A stretch of 22,744 bases of DNA from a virus. The notes under the pieces were generated by a model. The model worked only from the letters and a program-made list of their open reading frames with translations, was not told the origin of the DNA and did no database searches. The DNA is taken from the IMG/VR virus record IMGVR_UViG_3300008470_000363, positions 1 to 22,744 of that record. One strand, given 5' to 3'. Shown here in pieces: positions 2,204 to 22,744 of the stretch. Made by a program: the position numbers and the translations under genes. Position 1 is the stretch's first letter. Each line of letters begins with the position of its first letter.

Positions 2204-2213
2204 TTTTTTTCAT
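2204..2213 (-). other. A7 homopolymer frameshift at a start codon
   Basis: On the minus strand ATG (2213-2211) is followed by seven A residues (2210-2204) and then CTTATTTTAATG. As written the frame reads MKKTYFN and does not match the downstream 180-residue frame. With six A residues the two join into one signal-peptide-bearing protein. The cause could be a sequencing miscall, a natural phase-variable mutation, or transcriptional slippage on the A run. Confidence 0.6.
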
Positions 2214-5200
2214 TAGTCTGCCGCTCCTCCGTCAACGCATGTTTCAGTTTCATTAAAAACTGTCCACGTGTCGTCTGCTGTACACAATAATGTTACCTTG
2301 TTCCCTGCTGTTGCCGGTAAGTCAAGTTCGTAATCTGCGGTCATCACAGTCCCGATAAATAGTACAAAATGATCACCTGAAGCCGGTATAATTTCAAGCT
2401 TATTAGCTCCGCTTGTCCATATTGTAACAAAATCGCCTATGTTAACAGCTTCGCCATCCCACATTGTTATTTCGCAAGCAGCTGTAACGTGTACAACCCC
2501 GCCCCCATTGGTAGCGTATGTTAAGGTTTGCGCCGAAGAATAAGAGTTGAACACGGATTGGCCTTGTAAAGCTCCGGTTGTTCTCCAATTGCCTGTTAGG
2601 CTTGTAAAGTTTCCGTCTGCGTCTATACCATCCATTATTACTGCGTCGGTTGCTATTTCTGCTGAATCGATTGCGTCATCTGCCATACACCCATTGTCAA
2701 CAGTGTTATCAGGCAAGCCACCAACAGCCATACTAGTTATGCTCCCGGACGATAAATCCAGCCCATCTGTTGCAAGATTGATTATCCCAAAATCTACAGT
2801 ATCAAGTGCTGTTGTAGATGTCATCGTTAGCGTATTAGCCGTGAAAGTCAGAACCAAATCTTCCGAGTTTCCAACTAATTGAATTATTGTATTATCGGTT
2901 GTAATGTCATTTGTCGTTGATGCAAGATTTGATCCCAGCGAGCCAGAGCCGGTGCTATCATCTTCCCACGTAATGGTGCCACCAGTATTCCATTTTGCAA
3001 CCTGTCCATCTGTCGGCGTGTCTGAAGCTGTTGTTGCGACAAAATAAGCTGAAGCGGTGCCATTAAAAGCCTCATAAGCGTCATATCCTGAACCCCATCC
3101 ATCAGTATCAAGTGCAATTTCACCATCTGCGTCTGTTGTTGGGTCTGCTACAGCGGGAAGCGTTAAGAGGCCAGATAGTACCAATGGTTTTAACACGTCG
3201 ACAGTTTCCGTTACACCATCAACTTCAATAAAAGTTGTCTTGCTTCCGGCTACATCCACGCTGATACTACCAACAATATCTTGAGTTTCGGCAGACTCGA
3301 AAGATATTTCTCCAGTTCCGGCTGCATCGTCTTTATCTTCTGTTGTTATTTTGGGTGTCGAACTTGCCCCGGTTGTAAAACTTGTGGCCGTAAGCGCCGT
3401 GAAATCACCGTCGGCTGGTGTCATTGCTCCGACTGTCCCGTTAATCGGTCCTGCAAATCCTGCAACTGTTAACTCCCCAGTATTTGAATTATACGTAAAC
3501 TGTGAATCAGTTTTAACCCCAAGATTTCCAGTTGCAGCAGTCATGAACAAAGGGAAACATGTTGTATCTGCGCTTTCGTCTGCTGCTGTGACTGTTGTTG
3601 CTACCGCTGCTGTCCCTGTTATAGACCCGCCAATCGAGTTTGTGACGGTCATATCAGTGAACCAACCCTCAAGAACTCTCGTTCCAGTAAGTCCGATTTT
3701 CCCAGTAGTTGTTAAATTTTCATTATCAAATGTGATCTCACCTCCACCGGCCTTGATGACTAAATCTCCATCGTCGCCTGCCTGAGTTTCTAATGTTATT
3801 ACATTTGTAGTTGTTGAAATTTTCAGATAATCGTTTACGTCGCCTGAAGTCAAGAGGTGAATTGCACCCTCATCATTTTCAATCGTACCTTCACCAGCAT
3901 CTTTTTTTGCAATTGCCAGGTAATGGTTATCAGCATCAATCCAATTCGAGACCGGAGAGTTCCCAACACCATCATCAAAATTAGATGTTCCACTTACTTC
4001 CAGACCTGTTAATATTCCGAGGCTTGTAATATTTGCCTGCGCTGCTGCCGTGGTCGCTGTGTCGGGAGCTAACCCTGTTATTGTCCCAACTGTTGCCGAT
4101 TTAAGATTTGTGACCTCTGTTGTCGAAGCAACAACGAATGGAGCCGTACCGGTTGCCACGTCTGATGTAAATCCTAAAGCTGTTATTATATAAGCCCCTA
4201 CGTCCCATGCTGCTGTCAGGGGTATTGTACCGTCTGCGAGTAGATCGCCTGAGGCTGAAATCGTTTCTATCTTATCTCTTATCGCATTCTTCGTAGCAGA
4301 GTCAGTGTTGTTATCCCAAGACGTTGCATCATATGCTGTATCATTTGCTGGGTCATCTCCTGTATTGGCACCTTCTATAGAACTTGCACCAGCTGCTGAT
4401 GTTAGTATAGATGAATTGGCGACATTACCCGTTATCCCGACCGTACCAGTATCGACGGTTAGTGCTGTTGTTAATGTTGCGTTGGTAACTGTATCAGCGT
4501 TGCCGGTTAAAGCGCCAGTCACGTTGCCGGTCATCGTCCCCGACACGCAGAAATCACCATCAGCAGGGCTTGATACAATATTAATATTCCCAGTATAGCC
4601 ACCAGTTGCGATAATATCATCCATATGTGAATTAATAACACCAGCACCACTTTCAACAAAACTATAAGCGGTGCCACTGCCTGAACATTCAACGTGAATA
4701 TGATTCAGGGCGCTTCTAAACGAGCCAAGAAGAGCCAACCCGCCATAAGCGTCATTGTCTGCGCCATGCACATGTACAATATTATTAACAAACTCAGTAG
4801 ATACACTCGTTGCGGACCCTATATAAGTAATCCCTACAGTTGAAGTAGAGGTATCATCGTCAACATCGATATTGCACCCCTCCATAACAATATAGCCAGT
4901 TCCAGCAACAATACCTATTGTAGTAACGCTTGAGGAACCAGATCCATCTATATCAACAGTTTTTTGGTTGAAAACTTTTATAACCCCACCAGTACCAGCT
5001 TTAAAAGGCGCTTTGATCCCACTCGTTGTTGTCCCTGAATGTTCGTACTTTGTAGTTCCAAGATTAAAACCAAGGACACCAGCGCCACTTATATATCCAA
5101 CAAGCGGTTGATCTGCTTGGACTAAATTTTCAGAGCATGCCAATGAAGTTTTAGATAGCCTCACTTGAAAAGTACCGGTTGTTCCTTGAATAGCTGCAAT

Positions 5201-5938
5201 AGCTGTTGTAGGAGCTGATAAGGTTACAGATACGTTGCAAAGGGTGCCCCCTGTCGTGGACCCGAAATCAACTATATTAGCATCAGCTTGCGTCAATATC
5301 GTGTTCGCCGGATTACCCATGCCAATAATGGATAGATTGTTCACGGCGTATGTAATAGTATCCGTATAGGTGCCTGGATATAACAAAATGGTATCTCCGG
5401 CACTTGCCGCCGCCACTGCTGTAGAAAGGTCTGTGTAATCTCCACCGCCTGTGGCTACATGTATCGCATTCGCTGGTATTCCAGCCTTTGTGCCTAGTTG
5501 TGTTTGTATCGCACCTGTAACGCCTTTAACGTGAGCCAATTCAGTCAATGATGGGTATGTTGCTACGTCTAAAGATTGAAATGCCTTACTTCCATCAGTG
5601 GCTACTATCTCGGAGGCGGTTAGGGCATCGACTATTGGCGCATTTGTGAGTTGGAGATCATCAAGCCAACCCTTTAACCACCTAACACCAGTGCTGCCGA
5701 GTGAATCAGTTCCGTCTGTATCAGATATTAAATCTGTATTGATCGCTGTTGTGCCTAAGTTGTCTAATTCTTCAGTAGCATTTGCGTCAATATTCGTCTG
5801 CAAATCTGAATTATTGAGCGTTTCTTTGGCCCATGCTTCGTTTCTTGTGTCCCCGCTAACAACGGCTACTTGAGCAGCAAAAGAGTAGTTGCTTGAAAAC
5901 ACTGTTAAAATTACAAAAACAATTACCTTTTTCATCAT
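2213..5938 (-). CDS. large exported tail-fibre-like protein with beta-helix domain
   Basis: A 1241-residue protein. ATG 5938 is chosen because GGAG lies five bases upstream and it makes an ATGA overlap with the small gene before it; a TTG further upstream would place 18 residues before the signal peptide. Residues 1-21 form a Sec signal peptide (MMKKVIV..., cleavage after SFA). Residues about 155-460 look like a right-handed parallel beta-helix: GGGDYTDLSTAVAAASAGDT, LLYPGTYTDTI, then regular short strands, as in pectate-lyase-like phage spikes. The rest has low-complexity Thr/Ala/Gly fibre-type repeats such as ANITSLGILTGLEVSG and two PADGDF segments, plus a recurring TGxRxLxGW...TN motif near residues 84-100 and later. 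A compact beta domain ends in TCVDGGAAD. Binding or depolymerase roles are inferred; no catalytic residues could be assigned. Confidence 0.7.
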   Translation of the reverse strand: MMKKVIVFVILTVFSSNYSFAAQVAVVSGDTRNEAWAKETLNNSDLQTNIDANATEELDNLGTTAINTDLISDTDGTDSLGSTGVRWLKGWLDDLQLTNAPIVDALTASEIVATDGSKAFQSLDVATYPSLTELAHVKGVTGAIQTQLGTKAGIPANAIHVATGGGDYTDLSTAVAAASAGDTILLYPGTYTDTITYAVNNLSIIGMGNPANTILTQADANIVDFGSTTGGTLCNVSVTLSAPTTAIAAIQGTTGTFQVRLSKTSLACSENLVQADQPLVGYISGAGVLGFNLGTTKYEHSGTTTSGIKAPFKAGTGGVIKVFNQKTVDIDGSGSSSVTTIGIVAGTGYIVMEGCNIDVDDDTSTSTVGITYIGSATSVSTEFVNNIVHVHGADNDAYGGLALLGSFRSALNHIHVECSGSGTAYSFVESGAGVINSHMDDIIATGGYTGNINIVSSPADGDFCVSGTMTGNVTGALTGNADTVTNATLTTALTVDTGTVGITGNVANSSILTSAAGASSIEGANTGDDPANDTAYDATSWDNNTDSATKNAIRDKIETISASGDLLADGTIPLTAAWDVGAYIITALGFTSDVATGTAPFVVASTTEVTNLKSATVGTITGLAPDTATTAAAQANITSLGILTGLEVSGTSNFDDGVGNSPVSNWIDADNHYLAIAKKDAGEGTIENDEGAIHLLTSGDVNDYLKISTTTNVITLETQAGDDGDLVIKAGGGEITFDNENLTTTGKIGLTGTRVLEGWFTDMTVTNSIGGSITGTAAVATTVTAADESADTTCFPLFMTAATGNLGVKTDSQFTYNSNTGELTVAGFAGPINGTVGAMTPADGDFTALTATSFTTGASSTPKITTEDKDDAAGTGEISFESAETQDIVGSISVDVAGSKTTFIEVDGVTETVDVLKPLVLSGLLTLPAVADPTTDADGEIALDTDGWGSGYDAYEAFNGTASAYFVATTASDTPTDGQVAKWNTGGTITWEDDSTGSGSLGSNLASTTNDITTDNTIIQLVGNSEDLVLTFTANTLTMTSTTALDTVDFGIINLATDGLDLSSGSITSMAVGGLPDNTVDNGCMADDAIDSAEIATDAVIMDGIDADGNFTSLTGNWRTTGALQGQSVFNSYSSAQTLTYATNGGGVVHVTAACEITMWDGEAVNIGDFVTIWTSGANKLEIIPASGDHFVLFIGTVMTADYELDLPATAGNKVTLLCTADDTWTVFNETETCVDGGAAD

Positions 5939-6114
5939 GGTATCTCCGTTGTGTATGTTTTGTCCCAATCCGTTCCATATGCCGTATCCCAATCTGCTGT
6001 ATCATCGTAAGTAGTGTCCCAGTACGTGCCGCCACTCGAACCAATTAATGATAAAGCAACCTTTTTTAGTTCTATCTTTTTTAATTCTATTTTTTCAAGG
6101 CTTAACTTTTGCAA
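5935..6114 (-). CDS. 59-residue W/D/Y-rich small protein
   Basis: A short gene starting with TTG at 6114, preceded by an AAGGGGGG purine run at about seven bases, and ending in TGA at 5937-5935 that overlaps the ATG of the fibre-like gene (ATGA). The first 20 residues form a Leu/Ile/Lys heptad-like helix (LEKIELKKIELKKV). The rest is a repeat of aromatic and acidic residues: YWDTTYDD, DWDTAYG, DWDKTY. The WDTAYG motif also occurs in repeats of phage tail fibres (from memory). The tight coupling suggests a role with the following protein, for example as a trimerisation or chaperone-like partner; this is inference. It is short and easily missed by gene callers. Two eight-base T runs lie just upstream at 6127-6134 and 6145-6152. 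Confidence 0.6.
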   Translation of the reverse strand: MQKLSLEKIELKKIELKKVALSLIGSSGGTYWDTTYDDTADWDTAYGTDWDKTYTTEIP

Positions 6115-6169: not shown

Positions 6170-8359
6170 CTACCTCTCATAGGCATATTTCGAAAAATAA
6201 GACCCCCCAACATTGAACCGTATTAAATAATCACCGGCAGCGTTTATATGGTAGAAAAATTCCCCGCTATTAGCTATTAATCCATCATTTGTTGTGGCTC
6301 CTGATTCCATAACGCCGAGGCCGGTGTGTACCTCAAACCCTTCTACCATCTCGATATTGTGGTCGCCGTTGCGGAATTTAATATAGTCGTCTGTTCCTGC
6401 CGCGTCTGATGCGCTTACTGTTATAATGGCCTTTACTGTGCTGCTTTGCGTAGCTGACATTGTTGCTTGGAAATCTGTGGCCGGGTCTGAAGCGCATTGT
6501 ATTTGTGCGCTTGATGTTGAATCATCGTAAGCAAGGAGTGTGCAACTATCTTTAGATATTGCTTGAATGCCGTAAAACGGTGTTGTTGTGCTGCCAATTC
6601 TAAATGCTTTCCCCGTAGACGCTGGTATTATGCTTACAGTCGGCAGAACAGGGGAACCAGTCCCACCAGCATCCGCAAAGATAGATGCCACTTTTGTACC
6701 GGACCGATTAAAAATGACTTCGCCAGGATCTGTTGCCGTTGAGTCAAGCGTTATGTCTGCACCATCTGCGATAGATACAGTTGCTCCATCTGCAACAAGA
6801 ACACCCGGCCCGTCTACAACAGGGACAACATTTATAACCGGCGCTATTATTGGGCTTGCATCAGCAACGAGTGTGACAGCTGCCGGACTATAATCAGTCA
6901 AATCACCTATCGCTGCCGAATACGCATCAAGAGAAAATTCAAACTTCAGATCAGGCATAATTGTAATCTGATCGACGTAAACATTCGGGTATGATTCGTA
7001 TAAATCGTCTAATATAGATAATCTGTCCCCTAAGTACGGTTCAATCATCGAGTGATTTGACGAAAAGCTAACGGTCCCGGTTTGCAAAAATTTCCTGCGA
7101 AAATTTACAATTGCAAGTTTCTGAATTATTTGGGTGTTCGTCGTATACTTGTACAATACTTTTTCCGCTGAAATATTCGTGTAACTTGAGCCATCTATAG
7201 CAACACCTATTTCAGACGGCACACCATCTTGAATTCCAGGGTAATAAGTAGCATATCCACCGTCAAAACTTTCTTTATATATTTTTTCTGCAAAATTTAA
7301 ATTTAAAATATTATTCCGGTTAATTTCTTTAACTGCCGCACCGCCTTCAAGAACTATTAGCTGCACGACATCTGAACGTGGCATAATACAATTGCAAGAT
7401 TCCAGTAGTTCGCATAATACCTTTAAGGCGTCCTCTTTCGTCGTGAAGCAATAATTATATGTTATCCCAAGGGTTGCCAGTGCTGTTTTTGCGCTTGCGA
7501 AAGTCCCGGCTGAGTCTATTTGTGCAGATGGCACACCTATATCCTCCAAGATTGTTTCAATAATATCTGCGGGGCTTGTAACCGCCGATGTAGCTGAATT
7601 TGAAAATTTTGTGGGTAAATCATACAGTTTGCCTGACTGCCCGAATGGGGCGTTGACTCCATTTTGCCCTATATCGTTCTCAAAAACACGTAAACTTGTA
7701 ATCGTTGACTGAGTGAATGTGTATGTTGCGGTGCCGTACGTAGACGTGTTATTAGCAAATTCTACAGGGCTTGCAATCTCTGTTATCGTGTATGTGCCGA
7801 CTACAGCACCTAATACAGCATACCACTCATTAGCATCAGGGATCATGCGTAATTGGGGGTAGGCTGTCCCGAAAACTTTAGGAATTACAGCATTGTCAGG
7901 CCCATCCATAACAGCAGTTGTGTCGTTATAGCTATTTAACAAGGCTGTGTCTGGGTAATAATTTTGAAATAAATATTGTTGCAAAAAATCTTCGCACGTA
8001 AAGTTAAATTTCCCATATTCGTAGTGACATGATTTTACAGAAAATAACCAGGAATACACCTTCACTCCAGAATTAAGCAACGTAATTAGAACATCCTCAC
8101 CTTTGAACCCCGGCGCTGAAAAATCTCCTTTGCTGCCAGAAACGGAAAACTCTGTTGTGTTAGGCGGTATTAATTTATCAGCGCAACGTGTATTTTTTTC
8201 TTTTATCCCCGTAAAAGATTCACTGATAATTTTCGAGGTGTAAGTGTCAGAATCATATGTTATATCATTTCCAAAAGTCCAATAGTTACTATCAACCTCG
8301 AAAATCCACTGCGCTGTTATATTGCTTAGCGCCGCAACTGCTGAAAGTCCTGATCTCAT
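6170..8359 (-). CDS. tail hub / tail-tip protein
   Basis: A 729-residue protein. Its ATG at 8359 overlaps the preceding stop (ATGA). Position after the tape measure and the two Dit-like genes is where siphophages encode the tail hub that links the tail tip to fibres. The N-terminal part (about 1-480) contains a segment with AVIPKVFGTAYPQLR near residue 157-171, similar in style to conserved tail proteins of this position, and ends in repeated beta segments (YLGDRLSILDDLYESYPNVYVDQITI). A Val/Ala/Asp-rich linker near 500-540 (VLVADGATVSIADGADITLD) leads to a distinct C-terminal fibre or collar-like beta region (about 560-729). The hub role is inferred from order and length; no peptidoglycan hydrolase motif was seen. 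The end is followed by about 55 bases before the W/D-rich gene. Confidence 0.6.
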   Translation of the reverse strand: MRSGLSAVAALSNITAQWIFEVDSNYWTFGNDITYDSDTYTSKIISESFTGIKEKNTRCADKLIPPNTTEFSVSGSKGDFSAPGFKGEDVLITLLNSGVKVYSWLFSVKSCHYEYGKFNFTCEDFLQQYLFQNYYPDTALLNSYNDTTAVMDGPDNAVIPKVFGTAYPQLRMIPDANEWYAVLGAVVGTYTITEIASPVEFANNTSTYGTATYTFTQSTITSLRVFENDIGQNGVNAPFGQSGKLYDLPTKFSNSATSAVTSPADIIETILEDIGVPSAQIDSAGTFASAKTALATLGITYNYCFTTKEDALKVLCELLESCNCIMPRSDVVQLIVLEGGAAVKEINRNNILNLNFAEKIYKESFDGGYATYYPGIQDGVPSEIGVAIDGSSYTNISAEKVLYKYTTNTQIIQKLAIVNFRRKFLQTGTVSFSSNHSMIEPYLGDRLSILDDLYESYPNVYVDQITIMPDLKFEFSLDAYSAAIGDLTDYSPAAVTLVADASPIIAPVINVVPVVDGPGVLVADGATVSIADGADITLDSTATDPGEVIFNRSGTKVASIFADAGGTGSPVLPTVSIIPASTGKAFRIGSTTTPFYGIQAISKDSCTLLAYDDSTSSAQIQCASDPATDFQATMSATQSSTVKAIITVSASDAAGTDDYIKFRNGDHNIEMVEGFEVHTGLGVMESGATTNDGLIANSGEFFYHINAAGDYLIRFNVGGSYFSKYAYER

Positions 8360-8556
8360 TTATTTGCCTTTTTTATGCGTGGCTTAAACACCTTGTCCGG
8401 CTGATGTTCATCCCCTAAAATCGTTAAATTTTTTTCCTCTATCTCTTCCTCACATTTTTCTATTGAGCCATTAAAAATAATATGGGGAGTTGCGATTCTC
8501 ACGCTGTTGTCTGCAACTTCACTTATTAGCTTGTCGTTATCATGTACTATTCTCAT
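8356..8556 (-). CDS. 66-residue hypothetical protein of the tail-tip cluster
   Basis: The start is ATG 8556, chosen because AGGAAG lies just upstream, immediately after the stop of the preceding gene; extending to 8583 would overlap that gene without a ribosome binding site. The protein is charged, with an acidic middle (EKCEEEIEEKN) and a basic C-terminus (KPRIKKANK). It has no signal peptide and no membrane segment. Its TGA overlaps the hub ATG, so the two are probably co-translated. I do not recognise the family; small genes between Dit-like and hub genes often encode tail-tip assembly factors, but that is only context. Confidence 0.6.
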   Translation of the reverse strand: MRIVHDNDKLISEVADNSVRIATPHIIFNGSIEKCEEEIEEKNLTILGDEHQPDKVFKPRIKKANK

Positions 8557-8564
8557 ATCTTCCT

Positions 8565-9557
8565 TTAATACGTTACTGTGCAACCAGCATCCTTTATGCC
8601 ATCTGCGGCATAAGCTCCTGTTCCTTCTATTTTTGCTATCGCGTCGGAAGTTAGTCCGTTATTATCTTCTAATCCTATTACGCAAGAATTACCGCCTAAA
8701 GCTACACGGTTAGTGTAAAGGTCATCTACGCAACTTGATAAAGATGCTTCTGTTATATTACAGTCGTGCAAATATAACGCAGTTAGTGCCGTATTGGTGA
8801 TAACGTCTGGCGCAACTGTTATTAATGTGTCGGATAAATTTAAATGAGTTAGCGCCGTATTAGTGCTAACGTCTGGCGCAACTGTTATTAATGTGCTGTA
8901 TAAATATAAATAAGTTAGCTCCGTGTATGACTTTATTTGGGATAGACTATTTATCGAATTGCCATTCAATAAAATCTGCGTAACCAATAAAGGATCATCT
9001 ACAATAATAATTGTTCGCCTTGTTGCAGAAGTAACAAAATCTTTTAGCGGTGGGTTGGCTAATAAGCTTTCTGTTCCATCTGAATATTTTGTTGTAAAAC
9101 TTGCCGTTCTAGCATATTCGAAATCAAGTGTCGAGCCTGACGAGACAACGGTTAATCCGGGAACGCCTAAGATTTTAGCGGTAAATGAAATATCATACCT
9201 ACCGTAACTCATGATTGTAGCGGTTTGAGTGTATTCGCTTATATTTTGAATGGTGAAGTATTCAAGTGTTTGCGGGTGTTGCCAAACGTATGAATTTACC
9301 ATGCCATAGGCCTTTGCAGGATTGTAATATAAGTCAGAAAGTGTATCTGCATCTGCTTGCGATACGCCGGTCCACCTTAAATTAACCGTTGAATCTGGCG
9401 TAGTTTTTAGGGTTACAATTTTCCCACTCCCACCATCGGTATCGTTAACTACCTGCTTATACGATCCCGGCATAGGAATATCATAATTAGCCGATTTGGT
9501 TAGATAAACGGTATAATAATCTGGAACTTCGACATTGAGATAATCTGTAAACGCCAT
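8565..9557 (-). CDS. tail-tip protein with Dit-like N-terminus and leucine-rich repeats
   Basis: 330 residues in two parts. Residues 1-131 are a paralogue of the N-terminus of the preceding gene product (86 of 131 positions identical by my alignment), including NYDIPMPGSYKQ, YNPAKAYGM, VWQHPQTL and TIMSYGRYD. This looks like the tail-docking part of a distal tail (Dit)-type or minor tail protein, inferred from position right after the tape measure. After a linker, residues about 190-285 contain four leucine-rich repeats of 22 residues (VTQILLNGNSIN, LTYLYLYSTLIT, LTHLNLSDTLIT, LTALYLHDCNIT), followed by a C-terminal cap ending GCTVTY. The repeats are encoded by near-identical 66-base units. 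Leucine-rich repeats suggest protein or glycan binding at the tail tip. Start ATG 9557 follows AGGTG at about nine bases. Confidence 0.7.
   Translation of the reverse strand: MAFTDYLNVEVPDYYTVYLTKSANYDIPMPGSYKQVVNDTDGGSGKIVTLKTTPDSTVNLRWTGVSQADADTLSDLYYNPAKAYGMVNSYVWQHPQTLEYFTIQNISEYTQTATIMSYGRYDISFTAKILGVPGLTVVSSGSTLDFEYARTASFTTKYSDGTESLLANPPLKDFVTSATRRTIIIVDDPLLVTQILLNGNSINSLSQIKSYTELTYLYLYSTLITVAPDVSTNTALTHLNLSDTLITVAPDVITNTALTALYLHDCNITEASLSSCVDDLYTNRVALGGNSCVIGLEDNNGLTSDAIAKIEGTGAYAADGIKDAGCTVTY
8781..8930 (-). repeat. 66-base tandem repeat encoding leucine-rich repeats
   Basis: Units begin at 8781 and 8847, with a third partial copy from 8913, all beginning AGTTAG(T/C)(G/T)CC on the plus strand. 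The core GTCTGGCGCAACTGTTATTA is identical in the first two. The period of 66 bases equals 22 codons, matching the leucine-rich repeat length. The near identity points to recent duplication. Confidence 0.75.
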
Positions 9558-9568
9558 TACTTTGACAC

Positions 9569-11044
9569 CTATTCTATTAAAAAAGTTTTTACGAAGCCAT
9601 CGCTATCAGCGCCAGTGTAGGCAAGCATAAATCGTGTGGCCCCTACTAATACCAGAGAGTTATACGTTCCGTTTACTGTATCATGTTCTAATACGTCAAT
9701 TTCTGTTATATTGTCATAGTTCCCATCAATAGAGAAAGTCCCAATAAATCCATCGTCATTTCCGTCACTATATGCTAACGCTAAATGTGTTGAATTGATC
9801 AACACTAATGAGCTATAAGCGCCAAGGCCAGCTGGATTGGGTGTTACATCGTAGGAGTCAATTTCTGTTATATTGTCGTACGCTCCGTCTATAGAAAAAG
9901 TCTTAATGCGCCCAATCGCCCCAAATGATTGATAAGCTAACGCAAAATGGGTGGCGTCAATCAACACTAAAGAGTAATAATTCCCCACAGCCCCGCTATG
10001 GCTTAGCATATCAATGTCTGTTATATCGTAGCCACTATCGAGCACAAGAGTTTTAATTCTGGAACTTGTTGCCCCCAAATATGCAAATATGTAATGTGTG
10101 GCATCAATTTTTACCAGAGAGGGTTTGTTTCCGCCGTATGTTTCGTGATTATGCACATGTAGCTGAGTTATATTGTCGTAAGATCCGTCTATAGAAAATG
10201 TTTTTATATACCCTTTAGTTGCCGTGACATCCCAATATGCCAGAATGAGATGAGTTGAATCTACTAAAACAAGTGACGATGATCTACAATTTGAAGTATC
10301 GTGTTCTAATACGTCAATTTCTGTTATATTGTCATAGTTCCCGTCTATAGAAAATGTTTTTATATATCCATCCGCACCGTCACCAGTATAGGCAAGAATA
10401 AAATGCGTTGGGTCTATCATGACCAGAGAATTTTCGACTGCGTAACCTGTATCATGTTCTAATACGTCAATTTCTGTTATATTGTCATAGTTCCCGTCTA
10501 TAGAAAATGTTTTTATGTATCCGTCGCTACCATCCCCAGTATAAGCTAATATAAAATGCGTTGGGTCTATCATCACGAGGGAACTGTATTGACCGGTTGC
10601 TGGGTCATGCTCAAGAACTCCAATCTCGGATATAATAAAATCATTAAAGGTGCCTAAAATTTTGAAGCTAAAAGAAACATCATACCTACCGTAACTCATG
10701 ATTGTAGCGGTTGAATTAAACGCGCTTACATTCTGCACCGAATAAAGAGCAAGTGTTTGCGGGTGCTGCCAAACATATGACCGGCCCATACCGTAGGCCT
10801 TTGCAGGATTGTAATAATAGTCAGATAATATATCATGCTCAGATTGTGTTAAACCTGTAAATTTAATTGTCGCAACTGCATTAGGCGTAGTTTTAAGCGT
10901 GGAAACATCCCTACTCCCACCATAGGTATCGTTAACTATCTGCTTATACGATCCCGGCATAGGAATATCATAATTAGCCGATTGAGTGAGATAAACGTCA
11001 CTATAATCCGCAGATGCAATTTCAAGATAGTCTATAAATGCCAT
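9569..11044 (-). CDS. tail-tip protein with Dit-like N-terminus and seven-repeat beta-propeller
   Basis: 491 residues. ATG 11044 shares one base with the tape measure stop (TGATG). Residues 1-131 are the same docking domain as in the next gene. Residues about 137-491 contain seven units of 49-54 residues, with SLV at residues 155, 206, 257, 309, 358, 412 and 463. Each unit has the pattern SLVxIDxTHFxLAYxGxxxDGYIKTFSIDG, then a YDNITEIDVLEHD strand. That is four strands per unit and seven units. The first unit is preceded by a lone ISEIGVLEHD strand (138-147) while the last lacks its equivalent, which is the circular closure expected of a seven-bladed beta-propeller. The fold is inferred from the pattern. 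A receptor- or glycan-binding role is likely but not shown. Confidence 0.75.
   Translation of the reverse strand: MAFIDYLEIASADYSDVYLTQSANYDIPMPGSYKQIVNDTYGGSRDVSTLKTTPNAVATIKFTGLTQSEHDILSDYYYNPAKAYGMGRSYVWQHPQTLALYSVQNVSAFNSTATIMSYGRYDVSFSFKILGTFNDFIISEIGVLEHDPATGQYSSLVMIDPTHFILAYTGDGSDGYIKTFSIDGNYDNITEIDVLEHDTGYAVENSLVMIDPTHFILAYTGDGADGYIKTFSIDGNYDNITEIDVLEHDTSNCRSSSLVLVDSTHLILAYWDVTATKGYIKTFSIDGSYDNITQLHVHNHETYGGNKPSLVKIDATHYIFAYLGATSSRIKTLVLDSGYDITDIDMLSHSGAVGNYYSLVLIDATHFALAYQSFGAIGRIKTFSIDGAYDNITEIDSYDVTPNPAGLGAYSSLVLINSTHLALAYSDGNDDGFIGTFSIDGNYDNITEIDVLEHDTVNGTYNSLVLVGATRFMLAYTGADSDGFVKTFLIE
9572..10636 (-). repeat. seven tandem propeller-blade repeats (about 150 bases each)
   Basis: Seven coding repeats of about 147-162 bases. 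Several stretches are almost identical between copies, for example the plus-strand TCAATTTCTGTTATATTGTC, seen near 9688, 9859, 10314 and 10468. Conservation at the DNA level indicates recent amplification or ongoing recombination between blades. Confidence 0.75.
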
Positions 11045-14000
11045 CAGCTTAACATCCTTGCAAATTCAGGATTATCCCGGCTTTCGTTAATTAGTATCGA
11101 AGCAAGAGCTTTCCCGGATACTACTAAATTAACTTGTACAGGATCGCCACCGCCTCGTTTCGATCTGTCATCGTCTGGCCTAATTATCGGCGCATTTTGA
11201 TATCCTTCTGTTGCTGTGTACCCACCATTAATATCTGTCGGAGATACCATGTTCTGTAATAACTCTAACATTTCTCTGATGTTCTCGGTTGTAACTTCCT
11301 GAGACGTAGAAGCGTCTAAAGCCGCCGCCCACGCGTTAAACGCTTCCCATTCTGCTGTGTCTCTGACTGATTCACTCGCAAGGTCAGCCCATGCAACCAT
11401 ATCTTGCGCGAACAAGTCAAGTTGAGAGACTACAATCCCGGGAATATCATCAACCATTTCGCCGACGATATCAGGTAGCGTGTTGAAAATAGTAAATAAA
11501 TTTGCAGATGCTATGTCTAAACCTTCAAGACTCTCAAAAAATCCCTGTGGCATTTCTGGTCTAAGGTTCATCCACTCAGAAAACGTTGCATCATTGGCTA
11601 TATTAGTTATAACAGATTCAAGATTTTCAAGCTGCCCGATTATAGCAAGCGTGTTTTCACCCACTGCACCAGTATTAAGCGTTAACGCTTGTGCAAGTAT
11701 TTCCATTTCAGATTGTACAGCGTCGTTTATTTCCAATAAGTCGCTTGAAGCTTGATTAATAAGCGAGGCATGGTCAAAACCCAACATTGACATTGTGTCG
11801 ACATAATCAGTAACGAAAGCCTGGAAAAATGCAATATCTGTTGTGTTTAACATTCCGTCTTCAGACGTTAACGCAGCGTCTAACAATCTGGCATATTCGT
11901 TTTCAAAAAATTCCCTCGAAATAGGCATACCCTCAGACGTTTGCAATCCTGTCGCTTGAGCAACAAGGCTCTGAGACGTGCTGTCTAATGCTCTTAGCTG
12001 ATTTTCTTGAACCTCATAAATGCTTTGTAATATTTCGTATTGATCTGTTAATAAATCAAGGCTTCTGTCGTTATAATCATCTGCCGACGTGTTTAAGCTC
12101 ATTAATTCGTCTGATAGAACCCCGAACTCACGTTGCCAGTCAGCCACGCTCCAATCTTGGCGTTGCTTCCCAGTTATATAATCCTCGATATTTCCAGCCA
12201 AATTATTATACCCCGCCGACGCCTGTTCAATAATCGCTTTCGTTTCAAGCTTTCGTAGCTTTACTATATCTTCCAGCGGTAACCCGGCTTTTCTTGCCGA
12301 TTCAACAAGGTCTTTAATTCTTTCATTGAGCTGATAAGCTTGGTAATCTAAGTCTGACAATTCTAATTGGGCAAGGCTTGCAGAAACCTCCGTATTCACT
12401 CTTTCTGTAATTTGGGCTATTTCTCTTCTTTCTGTTCGCTCTCTATCTCGCTCTTCTGCCCGGTCACCTAAAAAACTGCTAACTCCACCGATAGCAAGAC
12501 CAGCTGCACCTAAAGCTGCAAAATTACCAACCTTCTGCATTGATTGAGTCATCACCATTTTTGCGGCCATTTGGCCCCACATTTGAGTTAGAGATTGCGT
12601 GAAATTGCTGAAATAATCTTCGAATGAATCAAGGTCATCGGTCAATAGGCCGGTGAATACTCCTGACATTTCAGATTTAATTGCGCTGGTGAAATTTTCT
12701 GCTACTCCGGCGAAAAATGATTCTTTGCCTTCAAAGGATAATTTCAGTATTTCTTTTATTTTTTCAATTTGTTCTTTTGTCAGGTTTAAATCTTCGTTCC
12801 ATTTTTCCATTTCCATTTCGAGCCATTTAGTTTTATACTCTTCAGACGTTTTATCCATACTATCAAGGATAAACCTACTATATCTTTTTTCGGAAACTTC
12901 TAATTGCTTGTAGTACTCTAACACGTGTGCGTTTTGATCTCTTCCCGGCGCCCTGAGTGCGGATAGCTCTATCTTTAATCTCTTAGCTGCTTTTGCCACC
13001 TCATTTATTCTATCAATTTCGTTTTGAAATGGGTTTTCATTTAATGTTACGACATTATTTTCTTTCTTGCCTACAACCTTGTCAAACTCTTTGTTGAAAT
13101 CAGATACTATTTTTTCAAGCTCCTTGAAGTTTGCAGAAGCAACATCAGTAAAATCAACAGAACCAGTGGATGCAAGCGCCATAGCTGCACTTATATTCAT
13201 TAGCCATGTATGCATATGGGCAAGGCTACCGAGTGCAACTGCTCCTTTTCTGCCACCGATCAAAAGACCAAACATGCCATACTCAAGAATTGCAGGGTCA
13301 TATGTTAAGACGTCCCACAAAGTCTTTGCTACGTTTTTAAACTTTTCTATGTATTTAGGAACATCTTGCTTTATTAGTTCTCTGTTACTTTCAAGCCAAC
13401 TTTTCATTTCAGTATTAAATAATGACAATGCATTTTTCAATTCATCAAAAACACCAGCCGCCATAATTGATCTTTCTATCTCAACAAAATAACTTTTAGA
13501 TACAGTTTTTAAACCTCTCCAAGAAGTCATCATTTTTTTTGCAGAACCGCCAAAATCTTCTTCTATGCCCTTGAAAATAGTTCCTACAATATCTTTTATA
13601 TCTATTCCTGATCTTTGTATTTCTTCAACGGTCATCCCGTAAGCATCTTTTAAATACTTACGTGCGTTAATACCAGCCTCAGCCATAATATTAAGGTCTT
13701 GAGCCATAATCTTACCCTTTGCAGAGGCTTGACCAAGTTGGAGTGCTAAACGCTGTAGAACATCGTCTCCGAAAATACTTGCAACGTCTGTTAAGGTTTC
13801 AAGGCTTTTAATCGTTGGGTCAAGACCCATTGCAGTCATAAGGCGAAAAGAGTCAACCGCTTTTTGGGTGTTAACAGGCATATCCAAAGCCCATTGGTTT
13901 AATTCGTGAAGGGTTTCTTTTCCACGGCCCTTTGTGAGTACGTCAAGTTGCACCTCCATCGCTTCAAAGGATGCAGCAACGTCGATGAAATCAGCTGCCA

Positions 14001-14244
14001 ACCTTTTACCAAAGTAAATAGCGCCAAGACCTATAAGCTGTTGGTGCATCCCAGTTAAATGGCTTGTTGCTTTACCGATATGTTTTGCAGTTGCGTCCCA
14101 TGCTTTGTTTATTGTTTTGGTGGTTTTAACTGTAGTTACAGCAACGGCCTGAATATCCTTTTTGACTTTTCCAAGGGATTTGTTAAATTTGGTTGTTTCT
14201 GCTACTATTGATACTTTGGCTTTTGCTAATGAAGGAATTTTCAT
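11044..14244 (-). CDS. tail tape measure protein
   Basis: 1066 residues, the second longest product here, directly after the frameshifted tail chaperone as in lambda-like tails; its ATG overlaps the chaperone extension's stop (ATGA). Residues about 70-260 match the tape measure N-terminal type: GLGAIYFGKRLAADFIDVAASFEAM, then DMPVNTQKAVDSFRLMTAMGLDP and GKIMAQDLNIMAEAGINARKY. Hydrophobic segments lie near residues 320-358 and 571-592 (NFAALGAAGLAIGGVSSFLG). Long charged helical stretches follow (RAEERDRERTERREIAQ, EEVQENQLRAL region), typical of a helical ruler. Tape measure length sets tail length; at the usual 1.5 Angstrom per residue this gives a tail of about 160 nm, so a siphovirus with a fairly long tail is expected. 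No lysozyme or peptidase motif was noticed. Confidence 0.93.
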   Translation of the reverse strand: MKIPSLAKAKVSIVAETTKFNKSLGKVKKDIQAVAVTTVKTTKTINKAWDATAKHIGKATSHLTGMHQQLIGLGAIYFGKRLAADFIDVAASFEAMEVQLDVLTKGRGKETLHELNQWALDMPVNTQKAVDSFRLMTAMGLDPTIKSLETLTDVASIFGDDVLQRLALQLGQASAKGKIMAQDLNIMAEAGINARKYLKDAYGMTVEEIQRSGIDIKDIVGTIFKGIEEDFGGSAKKMMTSWRGLKTVSKSYFVEIERSIMAAGVFDELKNALSLFNTEMKSWLESNRELIKQDVPKYIEKFKNVAKTLWDVLTYDPAILEYGMFGLLIGGRKGAVALGSLAHMHTWLMNISAAMALASTGSVDFTDVASANFKELEKIVSDFNKEFDKVVGKKENNVVTLNENPFQNEIDRINEVAKAAKRLKIELSALRAPGRDQNAHVLEYYKQLEVSEKRYSRFILDSMDKTSEEYKTKWLEMEMEKWNEDLNLTKEQIEKIKEILKLSFEGKESFFAGVAENFTSAIKSEMSGVFTGLLTDDLDSFEDYFSNFTQSLTQMWGQMAAKMVMTQSMQKVGNFAALGAAGLAIGGVSSFLGDRAEERDRERTERREIAQITERVNTEVSASLAQLELSDLDYQAYQLNERIKDLVESARKAGLPLEDIVKLRKLETKAIIEQASAGYNNLAGNIEDYITGKQRQDWSVADWQREFGVLSDELMSLNTSADDYNDRSLDLLTDQYEILQSIYEVQENQLRALDSTSQSLVAQATGLQTSEGMPISREFFENEYARLLDAALTSEDGMLNTTDIAFFQAFVTDYVDTMSMLGFDHASLINQASSDLLEINDAVQSEMEILAQALTLNTGAVGENTLAIIGQLENLESVITNIANDATFSEWMNLRPEMPQGFFESLEGLDIASANLFTIFNTLPDIVGEMVDDIPGIVVSQLDLFAQDMVAWADLASESVRDTAEWEAFNAWAAALDASTSQEVTTENIREMLELLQNMVSPTDINGGYTATEGYQNAPIIRPDDDRSKRGGGDPVQVNLVVSGKALASILINESRDNPEFARMLS

Positions 14245-17907: not shown

Positions 17908-18351
17908 CTAAACAGCACCTTCAATCGGCTCTACATGTAGCTCACCAGTTACGCCAGTGGCGTGTGAAGTCGGTTTTGTTCTCGGATTATATTGGATATA
18001 TGTAGCACTCGCAACAACCGCGTTCTGAGTAGCTCTTGGGACAACGAGCCTGACATATCGCTCAATCGGCTTAATAAGATCAATGTAAAATGTCTCATTG
18101 TCGTCATCGTCTGCGATCGTCTGACCAGTACCGAGCAGGTTTTCAGCACTTGAAAAACTATCAGAGCTTTGCTGGGCCTTGATTGATGTTACAGCACTCC
18201 CGGTAATAACACCGAAAGTAACAATCATGAGGACGGATTCATAGTTTACCATGTCAAGGGTTGCGCCGTTTATTGTGGATGTTGCCGCAACTCCCGCACT
18301 AGGTAGAATCGCCCGAGTGATTTTACAGTTTTTAGATATATTGTTCTCCAT
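17908..18351 (-). CDS. putative head decoration protein, paralogue 2
   Basis: 147 residues, clearly paralogous to the gene just upstream. Shared blocks are LDM-x2-YESVL, LLGTxQTI, FYID(L)-x-KPIERYVRL, a YIQYNPRT block and GELHVEPIEG at the end. The N-terminal 30 residues differ (ENNISKNCKITRAILPS). The start at 18351 follows GAGGTGAAAAAAG, nearly the same leader as the first copy. The size, lack of motifs and place next to the capsid gene suggest a capsid-binding decoration or stabilising protein. I recall similar proteins with a GELHVSPxEG ending between capsid and connector genes of other phages, but their role is not established to my knowledge. The product ends in EGAV. Confidence 0.65.
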   Translation of the reverse strand: MENNISKNCKITRAILPSAGVAATSTINGATLDMVNYESVLMIVTFGVITGSAVTSIKAQQSSDSFSSAENLLGTGQTIADDDDNETFYIDLIKPIERYVRLVVPRATQNAVVASATYIQYNPRTKPTSHATGVTGELHVEPIEGAV

Positions 18352-18379: not shown

Positions 18380-18826
18380 TTAAGCTGTGCCCTCAATAGG
18401 TTCAACGTGTAGCTCACCGGAAACGCTTGTTCCCTGAGTTGTCGGATATGTACGCGGATTATACTGTATATACATCGCACTGTCCACGGTCGACGCCTGC
18501 GTTGCTCTACTTATGTACAACCTGACATACCTCTCTATTGGTTTCACAAGGTCGATGTAAAATACTGTGTTATCTGCTGTATCCACAATGGTTTGGCTTG
18601 TGCCTAACAGATCAGCCGCATCTGATACAGTATCGTCCGTGCCTGACTGCATCTTAATAGACGTTGCCGCCCCACTTGTTATAGCGCCCATTCTAATAAC
18701 AACTAAAACCGATTCATACTGGTCCATATCAAGAACAGCCCCCTCAATTGAAGCGGAGCCAGAAGCTCCATCGGTTGAGGCAACAGCCAAAGACATTGCA
18801 ACGCTACTCGACATATTATTATCCAT
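18380..18826 (-). CDS. putative head decoration protein, paralogue 1
   Basis: 148 residues. The start at ATG 18826 has GGTGA upstream and overlaps the end of the 71-residue gene by eight bases (stop at 18819). Likely beta-rich: YESVLVVIRMGAIT, NTVFYIDLVKPIERYVRLYI, AMYIQYNPRT. The last residues GELHVEPIEGTA match paralogue 2. The two copies are diverged (roughly half identical by eye), so the duplication is not recent, although the intergenic leaders remain alike. Candidate role: outer capsid decoration, from position and small size only. Confidence 0.65.
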   Translation of the reverse strand: MDNNMSSSVAMSLAVASTDGASGSASIEGAVLDMDQYESVLVVIRMGAITSGAATSIKMQSGTDDTVSDAADLLGTSQTIVDTADNTVFYIDLVKPIERYVRLYISRATQASTVDSAMYIQYNPRTYPTTQGTSVSGELHVEPIEGTA

Positions 18827-19073: not shown

Positions 19074-20315
19074 TTAACCAAGTTTGATTCTTACAAAAGC
19101 CTCTTCGAGAACTGGTTGTGCATCACCTTCATATCTTCCGATGTAACCAATTTGATTTGTTTCAGAATACAGCTCGTTAAGAACTTTCATTTGCATATCA
19201 AGCGCATCTACAATCCAGTATTTTGAGAAATCTCCATACATACCAACATAAAGACCTGACGTATATGTATGTGGAACCCACTCAGAAAGGACATAAGGTT
19301 TTGCAAGAAGTGTATTCGGGATACCAGCAGATAAACCAGGCTGCCAAATGTACTGCAAATCTGAAGTTTTAAGCTTTCTTGCCATTGTTATCAAATTTCT
19401 GTGAACCAACCACTGTGCTTTTTTGTCATAAGCCTGTTTAAGAGTTCCCTGGACGTTAATCATGCCGTCGCCAGTGATCAAAGTAGCGGCCATAGCTGTA
19501 GAAACATCGCGGCCTGTCGAAATACCATCATCAGAAGCAGTAAAAAGTCCCAAGGGCTGATTATGACCCGTTCCAGTCATGTACGCAGTTTCCATTGTAC
19601 CGCCCAACTTATAACGCATTCTATCCTGGACAAGTGCCTGTACGCTCATAGTGGAATTTCTTAGCAACGTGTTTGAAATCTTGACACGCTTTGCAATTGG
19701 ATGTGGTCTTAACTCACGCTTTCCGAATCTCAACGCAGTATCTTCGGAACCTGTTTTAAGCTCCTGTGTCCATTCCCAATCATCCATATCTGTGTCAAGT
19801 TTTACAACACCAAGAGATTTTGCTTTTTTGAGCTGAATTATAGTCGCCAATTTTCTGACAGCAACATCATCATCAACATTTTTAAGAAGACCTGACATCA
19901 TTTTTTGAGGTAGCACAAGATAGCCACCTTCAATATCAGATCCGACCATCAAAGCTCTTTGCTCACCTGACAACGCTTGCATACCACCCATAAGACAAGT
20001 GTCAAAAATCTGACTTCTGATTTCTTCATCTTTGTTTACATCACGATTTTCACCATTTGGCCTGAAGTCGTCATTATTTGTTTGCTCGAAAGACTTTTCA
20101 CGTTTTTCGTCTTTTTCTTCCCTTGCAATGTCTTTTTCAAGTGTTGCAATGCGGGCTTCAATTTTATCAACATCTGTATCGAGCTTATCAAACTTTGTTC
20201 GATGCTCTTCAGTCCATGTCGACTGATCTGCATCAAGCGTGTCACGGTGCGCTTTATACTTATCCCATGCAACACCTAAACTGGTTCGTTCTTCAATTAA
20301 CTTTTCTTTTTTCAT
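19074..20315 (-). CDS. major capsid protein, HK97 fold
   Basis: 413 residues; ATG 20315 overlaps the protease stop (ATGA) and is preceded by AGAGG at nine bases. Residues 1-80 are a charged coiled coil (DTDVDKIEARIATLEKDIAREEKDEKREK), the usual scaffolding delta domain removed by the protease. The HK97-fold body follows from about residue 100: SDIEGGYLVLPQKMMSGLL, then RFGKRELRPHPIAKRVKISNTLLRN, a TGTGHNQPLGLF loop, the backbone region KAQWLVHRNLITMARKL, and the C-terminal EGDAQPVLEEAFVRIKLG. Length is in the normal range (about 380-420 before cleavage). The probable cleavage site lies near residue 95-110. Covalent cross-linking cannot be judged. Confidence 0.93.
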   Translation of the reverse strand: MKKEKLIEERTSLGVAWDKYKAHRDTLDADQSTWTEEHRTKFDKLDTDVDKIEARIATLEKDIAREEKDEKREKSFEQTNNDDFRPNGENRDVNKDEEIRSQIFDTCLMGGMQALSGEQRALMVGSDIEGGYLVLPQKMMSGLLKNVDDDVAVRKLATIIQLKKAKSLGVVKLDTDMDDWEWTQELKTGSEDTALRFGKRELRPHPIAKRVKISNTLLRNSTMSVQALVQDRMRYKLGGTMETAYMTGTGHNQPLGLFTASDDGISTGRDVSTAMAATLITGDGMINVQGTLKQAYDKKAQWLVHRNLITMARKLKTSDLQYIWQPGLSAGIPNTLLAKPYVLSEWVPHTYTSGLYVGMYGDFSKYWIVDALDMQMKVLNELYSETNQIGYIGRYEGDAQPVLEEAFVRIKLG

Positions 20316-21114: not shown

Positions 21115-22744
21115 TTACCTTGCTGCTATAACGCAGTCACAACCCCCATGTAATGGTGGATATTTTGTTGCCCTTACTGTCATATTTCCAACTTCACCGC
21201 CATCAATTGTTGTCCCGCTTGGCAAAAATGGAGATCCGTATCGCTTTACCGTTTTGCCGTTCATTTGATTACAAAAAACACAAGATTTCCCAAGAGTTCG
21301 CCATGTTGGTGAAAGACCAACGCCAGCAATAACAAACGAGGCCACCATATTTGATACCCCGTTACTTTCTGAAGCTTCTACTTTATCGGCTCGTTTTTCG
21401 TGCCATTCGTCGGCTCTTGTGTCAATTGCGTCAATGCCTTTTTCCAACTCTTTGAACATTTGGCCCCTCGAACTACTTATGTATTGACCTTTAAACCCTT
21501 CGATATAATTATCAATCTCTGTTCTAAGCTCATCCGTCACTCCAATATCCGCCCCGACTTCTCCGGCTACGGCTTCTTGAATTAACTCCGCATAAGTCCT
21601 TAGCAACGGGGCTAAGTCCCTGTCAATATATTTTCCGAAATCCTCAGAGTAAAAATTATCTAACCATTTACCCATATCTGAAGCCGATCTTTCACCGGAT
21701 TGCTTTTTAGACTCTCTTTTTATTTTTAGTGTTTCTAGGCTGACAAGTTTTTGCGCTGCGCTCCTAATTAAAGGGGAAAATCTTTTTTGTATTCTTTTCC
21801 TTGCCGCTATTGTTGTATTTACATCTCTATGCTCAATACTTCTATTATTATTTTGGTTTACTGGTTCAGGTTCCGGCTCGTTTTCGATTTGGTTTAAATT
21901 TTCAAGAGAAGTCATATTCAACTGTATATAGGTCTGATCGGCCCACTCCTTTTCTATTGGGTTTCGTTCCTCAAGCTCTCTTATTTCGTTCGGCGACATG
22001 GCGCCACAGTTAAATTGGCCCTTGTAATATTCTGTTCTTGCTGCCGAATCACCACGGAGCAACCCTTCAACGTTATGTCTGATAATGTATTCAACTTGTT
22101 CTTTCGGTGTCAATAACCACGCCTCGAAAGATTGTTCGAGTCTCACAAGCCACACACGAATTGAATATTTTACAAGCTCTAAAGACTGCTGTTCAATATT
22201 TGAGTAAGTGGACCTAGAAAGATCTTTCAAAACATGCGGTGGTAAATTAAACCACCTGGCCACATCTGAAATTGAAAATTGACGACCTTCTACAAGCTGG
22301 CTTTTATCAGGCTCGGTCCCAACTTTCTGGACCTTCATTCCCTCTTCTGCAACAAATGCTTTGTGACTCTTTCCAAGTCCAGACATTGCAGATGATAAAG
22401 ATGCTGTTAGGTTTTTGTGTGCAACTTCTCCTAATGCCCCTGGATGTTCAAAAATAACACCCATATTAGAGCCGTTTGAGAAAAACAAATTAGCATAAGT
22501 TCTCATTGCCAGCATTAACCCGAGAGAATCTTTTGAATAATCTATCAGAGCATTTCCAAAAAGACCGTTTAAGCCCAATGCCGGAATATGCAATATTTGA
22601 TTCCTACTATATGGCTTTTCTTGACCACCAGGCATGGTGATAAAATATTTTAGAGTTTTCCCGACTCTTTCAACTCTCATATTATCAGGATGAACAGGCC
22701 ACAATGCGACTATTCGATTTAAGTTGTTCCTGATTTGAATTGAA
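21115..22744 (-). CDS. portal protein fused to a MuF-like domain (N-terminus outside window)
   Basis: The frame is open to the window edge, so the N-terminus (probably about 100 or more residues) is missing; TTG/ATG codons near 22704 are internal. The visible part begins NRIVALWPVHPDNMRVERVG and continues with PYSRNQILHIPALGLNGLFG, SISDVARWFNLPPHVLKDL and STYSNIEQQSLELVKYSIRVWL, which is the HK97-type portal pattern. After a linker rich in E, P and N there is a helical region and then, in the last 70 residues, WRTLGKSCVFCNQMNGKTV ... YPPLHGGCDCVIAAR. This is the C-terminal signature of phage Mu gpF / SPP1 gp7 minor head proteins (CxxC...GK...PPLHxxCxC). The portal forms the DNA entry vertex; MuF proteins associate with it inside the head. 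Here they appear as one chain. Confidence 0.88.
   Translation of the reverse strand, partial: SIQIRNNLNRIVALWPVHPDNMRVERVGKTLKYFITMPGGQEKPYSRNQILHIPALGLNGLFGNALIDYSKDSLGLMLAMRTYANLFFSNGSNMGVIFEHPGALGEVAHKNLTASLSSAMSGLGKSHKAFVAEEGMKVQKVGTEPDKSQLVEGRQFSISDVARWFNLPPHVLKDLSRSTYSNIEQQSLELVKYSIRVWLVRLEQSFEAWLLTPKEQVEYIIRHNVEGLLRGDSAARTEYYKGQFNCGAMSPNEIRELEERNPIEKEWADQTYIQLNMTSLENLNQIENEPEPEPVNQNNNRSIEHRDVNTTIAARKRIQKRFSPLIRSAAQKLVSLETLKIKRESKKQSGERSASDMGKWLDNFYSEDFGKYIDRDLAPLLRTYAELIQEAVAGEVGADIGVTDELRTEIDNYIEGFKGQYISSSRGQMFKELEKGIDAIDTRADEWHEKRADKVEASESNGVSNMVASFVIAGVGLSPTWRTLGKSCVFCNQMNGKTVKRYGSPFLPSGTTIDGGEVGNMTVRATKYPPLHGGCDCVIAAR

Follow-up and report, generated by a model that had tools for sequence, protein, structure and literature searches.

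The window analyzed here, a 22,744-nucleotide (22.7-kb) viral record (IMG/VR IMGVR_UViG_3300008470_000363), contains a siphophage structural module encoded on the minus strand, on which all the features described below lie. The module includes genes for a portal, a protease, an HK97-type major capsid protein, connectors, a major tail protein, a tail assembly chaperone, and a 1066-aa tape-measure protein (positions 11044 to 14244; Pfam TMP_3, E 3e-13; phrog_973, E 3e-21). After the tape measure come two adjacent genes, one for a beta-propeller-bearing protein of 491 aa (9569 to 11044) and one for a leucine-rich-repeat (LRR)-bearing protein of 330 aa (8565 to 9557), followed by a putative tail hub and a fiber-like protein. 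The tape-measure gene is directly upstream of the propeller gene, its stop codon overlapping the ATG of the latter. For the genes at 19074 to 20315 and 21115 to 22704, the closest annotated phage is Streptomyces phage Chymera (47% for the capsid, 30% for the full-length portal). Downstream of the capsid gene, two adjacent ORFs (17908 to 18351 and 18380 to 18826) encode proteins of 147 and 148 aa that are 56% identical over 146 residues; this genome thus has another tandem duplicate pair, possibly of capsid decoration proteins.

The 729-aa protein encoded at 6170 to 8359 is, from its position, the presumptive tail hub. Its residues 1 to 510 are 52% identical to the product of L045:8168-11569, from an uncultured phage discussed below, while the C-terminal remainder is unrelated; the hub thus echoes the pattern of the neighboring tail-tip proteins, with a conserved N terminus and a variable C terminus. 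It has no Pfam match, and an hhalign comparison with PF09931/PF09356 hubs gave none either. A small ORF with a TTG start (75 aa; 8356 to 8583) lies between the LRR gene and the hub gene; it has no counterpart between domain and hub in L045 and may not be a gene. The fiber-like protein (1259 aa; 2213 to 5992) is related to the product of L005:5296-7533 (phmmer E 4e-69), which matches a tail fiber PHROG and adjoins a free-standing propeller gene. Beside the fiber-like gene, the ORF at 1652 to 2194 encodes a 180-aa protein with a below-cutoff match to DUF4082.

Duplication of the N-terminal domain

Residues 1 to 131 of the propeller protein (copy 1, 10652 to 11044) and of the LRR protein (copy 2, 9165 to 9557) can be aligned without gaps and are identical at 86 of 131 positions (66%; BLASTP E 9e-61), confirming the count obtained by hand in an earlier, sequence-only reading of the locus. 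Beyond residue 131, sequence comparison found nothing shared between the two proteins, again as that reading had it. At the DNA level the copies are 75% identical over 393 nt, with a sharp drop past residue ~131; upstream, the similarity reaches back only ~10 nt from the ATG. DNA self-comparison places the corresponding short stretch before copy 2 at 9558 to 9570, and the putative AGG ribosome-binding site of copy 2 within it (9568 to 9570) overlaps the copy 1 stop codon. An E value of 9e-61 rules out chance similarity, and an assembly artifact is ruled out by the 25% DNA difference between the copies and by their different contexts.

The dN and dS values between the copies (0.24 and 0.61; dN/dS about 0.4) argue that both domains have stayed functional and under selection. 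The reading frame and start region are intact in both, and both retain the best-conserved stretches of the domain (about residues 22 to 35, 77 to 98, and 112 to 121). Across the first of these stretches, residues 22 to 35, 14 consecutive codons are identical between the copies (shuffle p 0.027), hinting at either gene conversion or strong constraint. Overall, the duplicated pair is real and probably functional.

The two C-terminal modules

In the 491-aa protein, a hidden Markov model detected seven repeats of ~51 aa occupying residues 134 to 491 (9572 to 10645), up to the C terminus. AlphaFold, run with 19 sequences, returned a beta-propeller with a pLDDT of >90 over most of residues 138 to 490, and a Foldseek search with this model gave hundreds of matches with propellers on top (E 3e-10). 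The segment is thus confidently predicted to fold as a seven-bladed beta-propeller, in agreement with the seven units given in the earlier reading. No Pfam model matched the repeat.

Searching viral contigs with the seven-repeat profile identified 22 propeller loci, 16 of which have exactly seven repeats (about 14 distinct, two being near-duplicates). Apart from loci at contig edges, the remainder comprises L009, which has four repeats, and a group of nearly identical contigs to which L003 and L008 belong. These last two have six and two blades, respectively (L003 about 7308 to 8861, L008 about 7308 to 8264), an in-frame difference of four blades between near-identical phages whose flanks are 99.96% (before) and 99.6% (after) identical; either a true deletion or an assembly collapse would account for it. 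The predominance of seven-repeat loci weakens the proposal that repeat gain and loss drive the evolution of this module. What varies is the context: some of the propellers are free-standing proteins of ~360 to 385 aa, others follow an unrelated N-terminal domain of ~180 aa, and in L023 and L024 the gene immediately following the tape measure encodes a protein that ends in a homologous propeller. The propeller can therefore be regarded as a mobile, closed module. A detectable gpM-like N-terminal domain (see below) was found in none of the 22 propeller contigs. L013:3923-7798, L004:6993-10139, and L011:6834-11381 each continue from a propeller of the same family into a long, repeat-rich C-terminal region, akin to separate genes in neighboring phages (e.g., L003:8886-11597), a further instance of module shuffling. 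Almost constant in its number of blades and joined to a variety of partners, this family appears to be an uncatalogued and widespread phage module.

The LRR assignment of the 330-aa protein was likewise borne out. Pfam LRR_4 scored 30.4 bits against a cutoff of 27, with the best stretch at residues 235 to 270 (E 4e-7), and LRR chains of solved structures in the PDB matched residues 192 to 272 (E 4.6e-6). This segment (8742 to 8984), the DNA of which contains a 66-nt tandem repeat, has only about three to four visible LRR units; LRRs are not recognizable in residues 132 to 190 or 273 to 330. The first of these regions, the linker (8988 to 9164), gave no matches in Pfam, PHROG, or NCBIfam. No close relative of the LRR unit was present in the viral contigs searched. 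A literature search for LRRs in phage tails, with most subscription journals outside its reach, yielded nothing relevant.

Relatives and gene position of the shared domain

Searches for the N-terminal domain in viral contigs, including one with an alignment of both copies, in genome contigs, and in annotated phages returned nothing. Its central 56-residue segment as the query found the uncultured phage L045, in which a 132-aa protein (L045:7773-8171), 41% identical, consists of the bare domain and is encoded between the tape measure and a hub-like protein. The L045 tape measure is 75% identical over 229 aa to that of the phage studied here. A tape-measure scan recovered 28 loci, among them another uncultured phage, L064, with a 142-aa version of the domain (L064:6747-7172; E 3.6e-14), also between tape measure and hub. 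Both phages have one copy of the domain and no C-terminal module, and neither contains a further gpM or DUF2460 candidate between the tape measure and the hub. The order tape measure, domain, hub thus occurs in all three phages found to carry the domain, with the tape measure identified by Pfam and the hub by position and conservation only.

In all five phages with related tape measures that were tested (L051 to L054 and L061), the same slot holds a protein of the DUF2460 family (PF09343), known as the distal tail protein (Dit) of gene transfer agents. In L051 and L054, the DUF2460 gene is followed by one for a PF09931/PF09356 hub protein. The DUF2460 protein of L054 (L054:11095-11958; 288 aa) has an insert of ~70 residues missing from its relatives and may be another decorated distal tail protein.

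The distal-tail location proposed from the sequence alone is therefore upheld by the bare gene found at the same slot in two relatives. A recurrent docking domain that presents alternative modules was not found: the viral contigs yielded no fusion of the domain to other C-terminal repeat types, only the bare copies of L045 and L064, and of the suggested modular system what stands is the mobility of the propeller on other proteins.

Profile similarity to lambda gpM

An hhalign profile built from four domain sequences (the two copies, L045, and L064) was compared with one of ten proteins of the lambda gpM family. The match scored 27.7 (P = 3.5e-4; hhalign probability, 37%); none of 150 column shuffles did as well (best, 17.2), and unrelated profiles reached at most 15.6. 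In the alignment, SYVWQHP of the domain falls on SFLWTPP, with the subsequent strands in register. The L045 and L064 domains alone matched the gpM family with a P of 0.0013, whereas the two copies of the studied phage alone gave a marginal match; the match thus gains strength with more diverse sequences, as expected for true homology. Against DUF2460 the domain profile was marginal, with one of 150 shuffles equally good.

The curated gpM (PF05939) and DUF2460 (PF09343) models gave no hit at E<=10 in the 22.7-kb record, so the domain is not filed in either family, and no other family in Pfam, PHROG, or NCBIfam matched it. Structure prediction, successful for the propeller, gave values too low to assign a fold to the N-terminal domain: its pLDDT was 20 to 56 within the full protein and averaged 48 when modeled alone with three sequences. 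These low-confidence models have a strand-helix-strand-strand-strand order at residues 57 to 129, compatible with a tail-tube-like beta-sandwich that has a flanking helix, and with such a model Foldseek retrieved no confident ring protein. The gene position in the relatives and the profile match make a gpM-type distal tail domain the probable assignment, and the ring fold that it implies is supported but not proven. The notion of a tail-tip docking domain, at first guessed from the order of the genes, is now well supported by the same evidence. Nothing pointed to a fold other than that of a ring protein; the single, ancestral-type protein of the relatives, on the other hand, corresponds to neither fusion.

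DISCUSSION

The bare single copies at the distal-tail slot of L045 and L064 suggest that the phage studied here has duplicated its distal-tail gene. The explanation that we consider likely is that a siphophage Dit gene of the gpM type was duplicated in tandem and that each copy gained a different C-terminal module, a propeller or LRRs. The gpM ring of lambda, which has 3-fold symmetry, consists of six chains that adopt two conformers and sits between a 6-fold tube and a 3-fold hub (PMC10721106). The 131-residue domain would most likely build a comparable hexameric ring between the tail tube and a trimeric hub, from which the propeller and the LRRs would point outward as accessory adhesins binding host-surface molecules. 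Both proteins would be present in the virion, and a host-binding role for their modules is suggested by analogy with evolved Dits and with the propellers of phage receptor-binding proteins. The arrangement looks like the outcome of one duplication and two module gains in a single lineage.

Alternatively, one copy alone could be the ring protein, the other being a decoration elsewhere on the tail, a low-level copy, or a decaying duplicate. In favor of this, one position in three differs between the copies, the dN/dS of about 0.4 is only moderate, and a single ring protein is enough in L045 and L064; the preservation in both copies of the most conserved stretches, the frame, and the start region nevertheless makes this somewhat unlikely. 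The shared domain might also be some other tail-tip adaptor, or an attachment domain for peripheral fibers, that was duplicated to anchor two fibers or spikes. The modest profile match of a domain with neither a confident structure model nor a curated family would leave room for this, but the bare copies occupy the Dit position in two phages that offer no alternative gpM or DUF2460 candidate there, and the best profile match, above all shuffles, is to gpM; we therefore consider it unlikely.

A special form of the tandem Dit duplication is a hetero-hexameric ring in which the two gpM conformers have become two genes, with three propeller-bearing and three LRR-bearing chains alternating; although the purifying selection on both retained copies, the two conformers and 3-fold symmetry of the lambda ring (PMC10721106), and the adjacency of the genes, with the copy 1 stop codon overlapping the putative ribosome-binding site, would all suit it, the relatives make their ring from one protein and the available results fit a 3+3 ring and two homo-hexamers alike, so that we hold it to be quite unlikely. 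That such a single ring of three and three Dit paralogues would use the 6-to-3 symmetry step to display two adhesins in fixed alternation is a distinctly improbable extension.

Returning to the proposed duplicated gpM-type Dit with two outward modules, one of its closest known counterparts is lambda gpM itself (PF05939). The two are alike in gene position, after the tape measure and before the hub, in stand-alone size (109 aa for gpM, 132 to 142 aa here), and in profile, the similarity exceeding that of shuffles with matching register. They differ in that the gpM proteins retrieved (109 to 122 aa) are single-domain, single-copy, and devoid of a C-terminal module, and in that the Pfam gpM model misses the domain of the studied phage. 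DUF2460 proteins share the slot beside a related tape measure in L051 to L054 and L061; they are, however, about 200 aa long, and their profile match to the domain is only marginal.

Among phage beta-propellers, phi11 Gp45 has five blades, PRD1 P2 a distorted five, and PhiKZ gp131C seven (PMC4901313). All three serve, or have been suggested to serve, in recognizing the host from the virion surface, as we propose here. None is described as fused to a Dit-like domain (PMC4901313), and the present propeller family has no Pfam match.

The functional parallel lies with the evolved Dits (evoDits) of Gram-positive siphophages, in which carbohydrate-binding modules are inserted in peripheral-domain loops of a single Dit (PMC7291167, PMC10688798); in lactococcal phages, Dits with such modules help adsorption (PMC10688798). 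As in evoDits, a tail-tip ring protein would here bear extra, putatively host-binding modules, and, provided that the core is a Dit, a module missing from the basic form has been added to it. Unlike in evoDits, the modules are a propeller and LRRs, placed C-terminally after residue 131 on two paralogous copies. Because they are C-terminal rather than loop insertions, the system might work in an evoDit-like manner yet falls outside the strict definition. In the literature covered, which left out most subscription journals, a search for duplicated Dit genes brought up unrelated papers only, and no account of a Dit duplicated and fitted with two modules was met, although this does not prove that none exists. 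The accessory adhesion modules of Dit rings have so far been mainly carbohydrate-binding modules inserted in the Dits of Gram-positive phages. If the proposed explanation is true, a duplicated gpM-type core with a C-terminal propeller on one copy and LRRs on the other would offer a natural test of whether two adhesins can work on a single ring of the same phage, and would represent a second route to Dit-borne adhesion modules.
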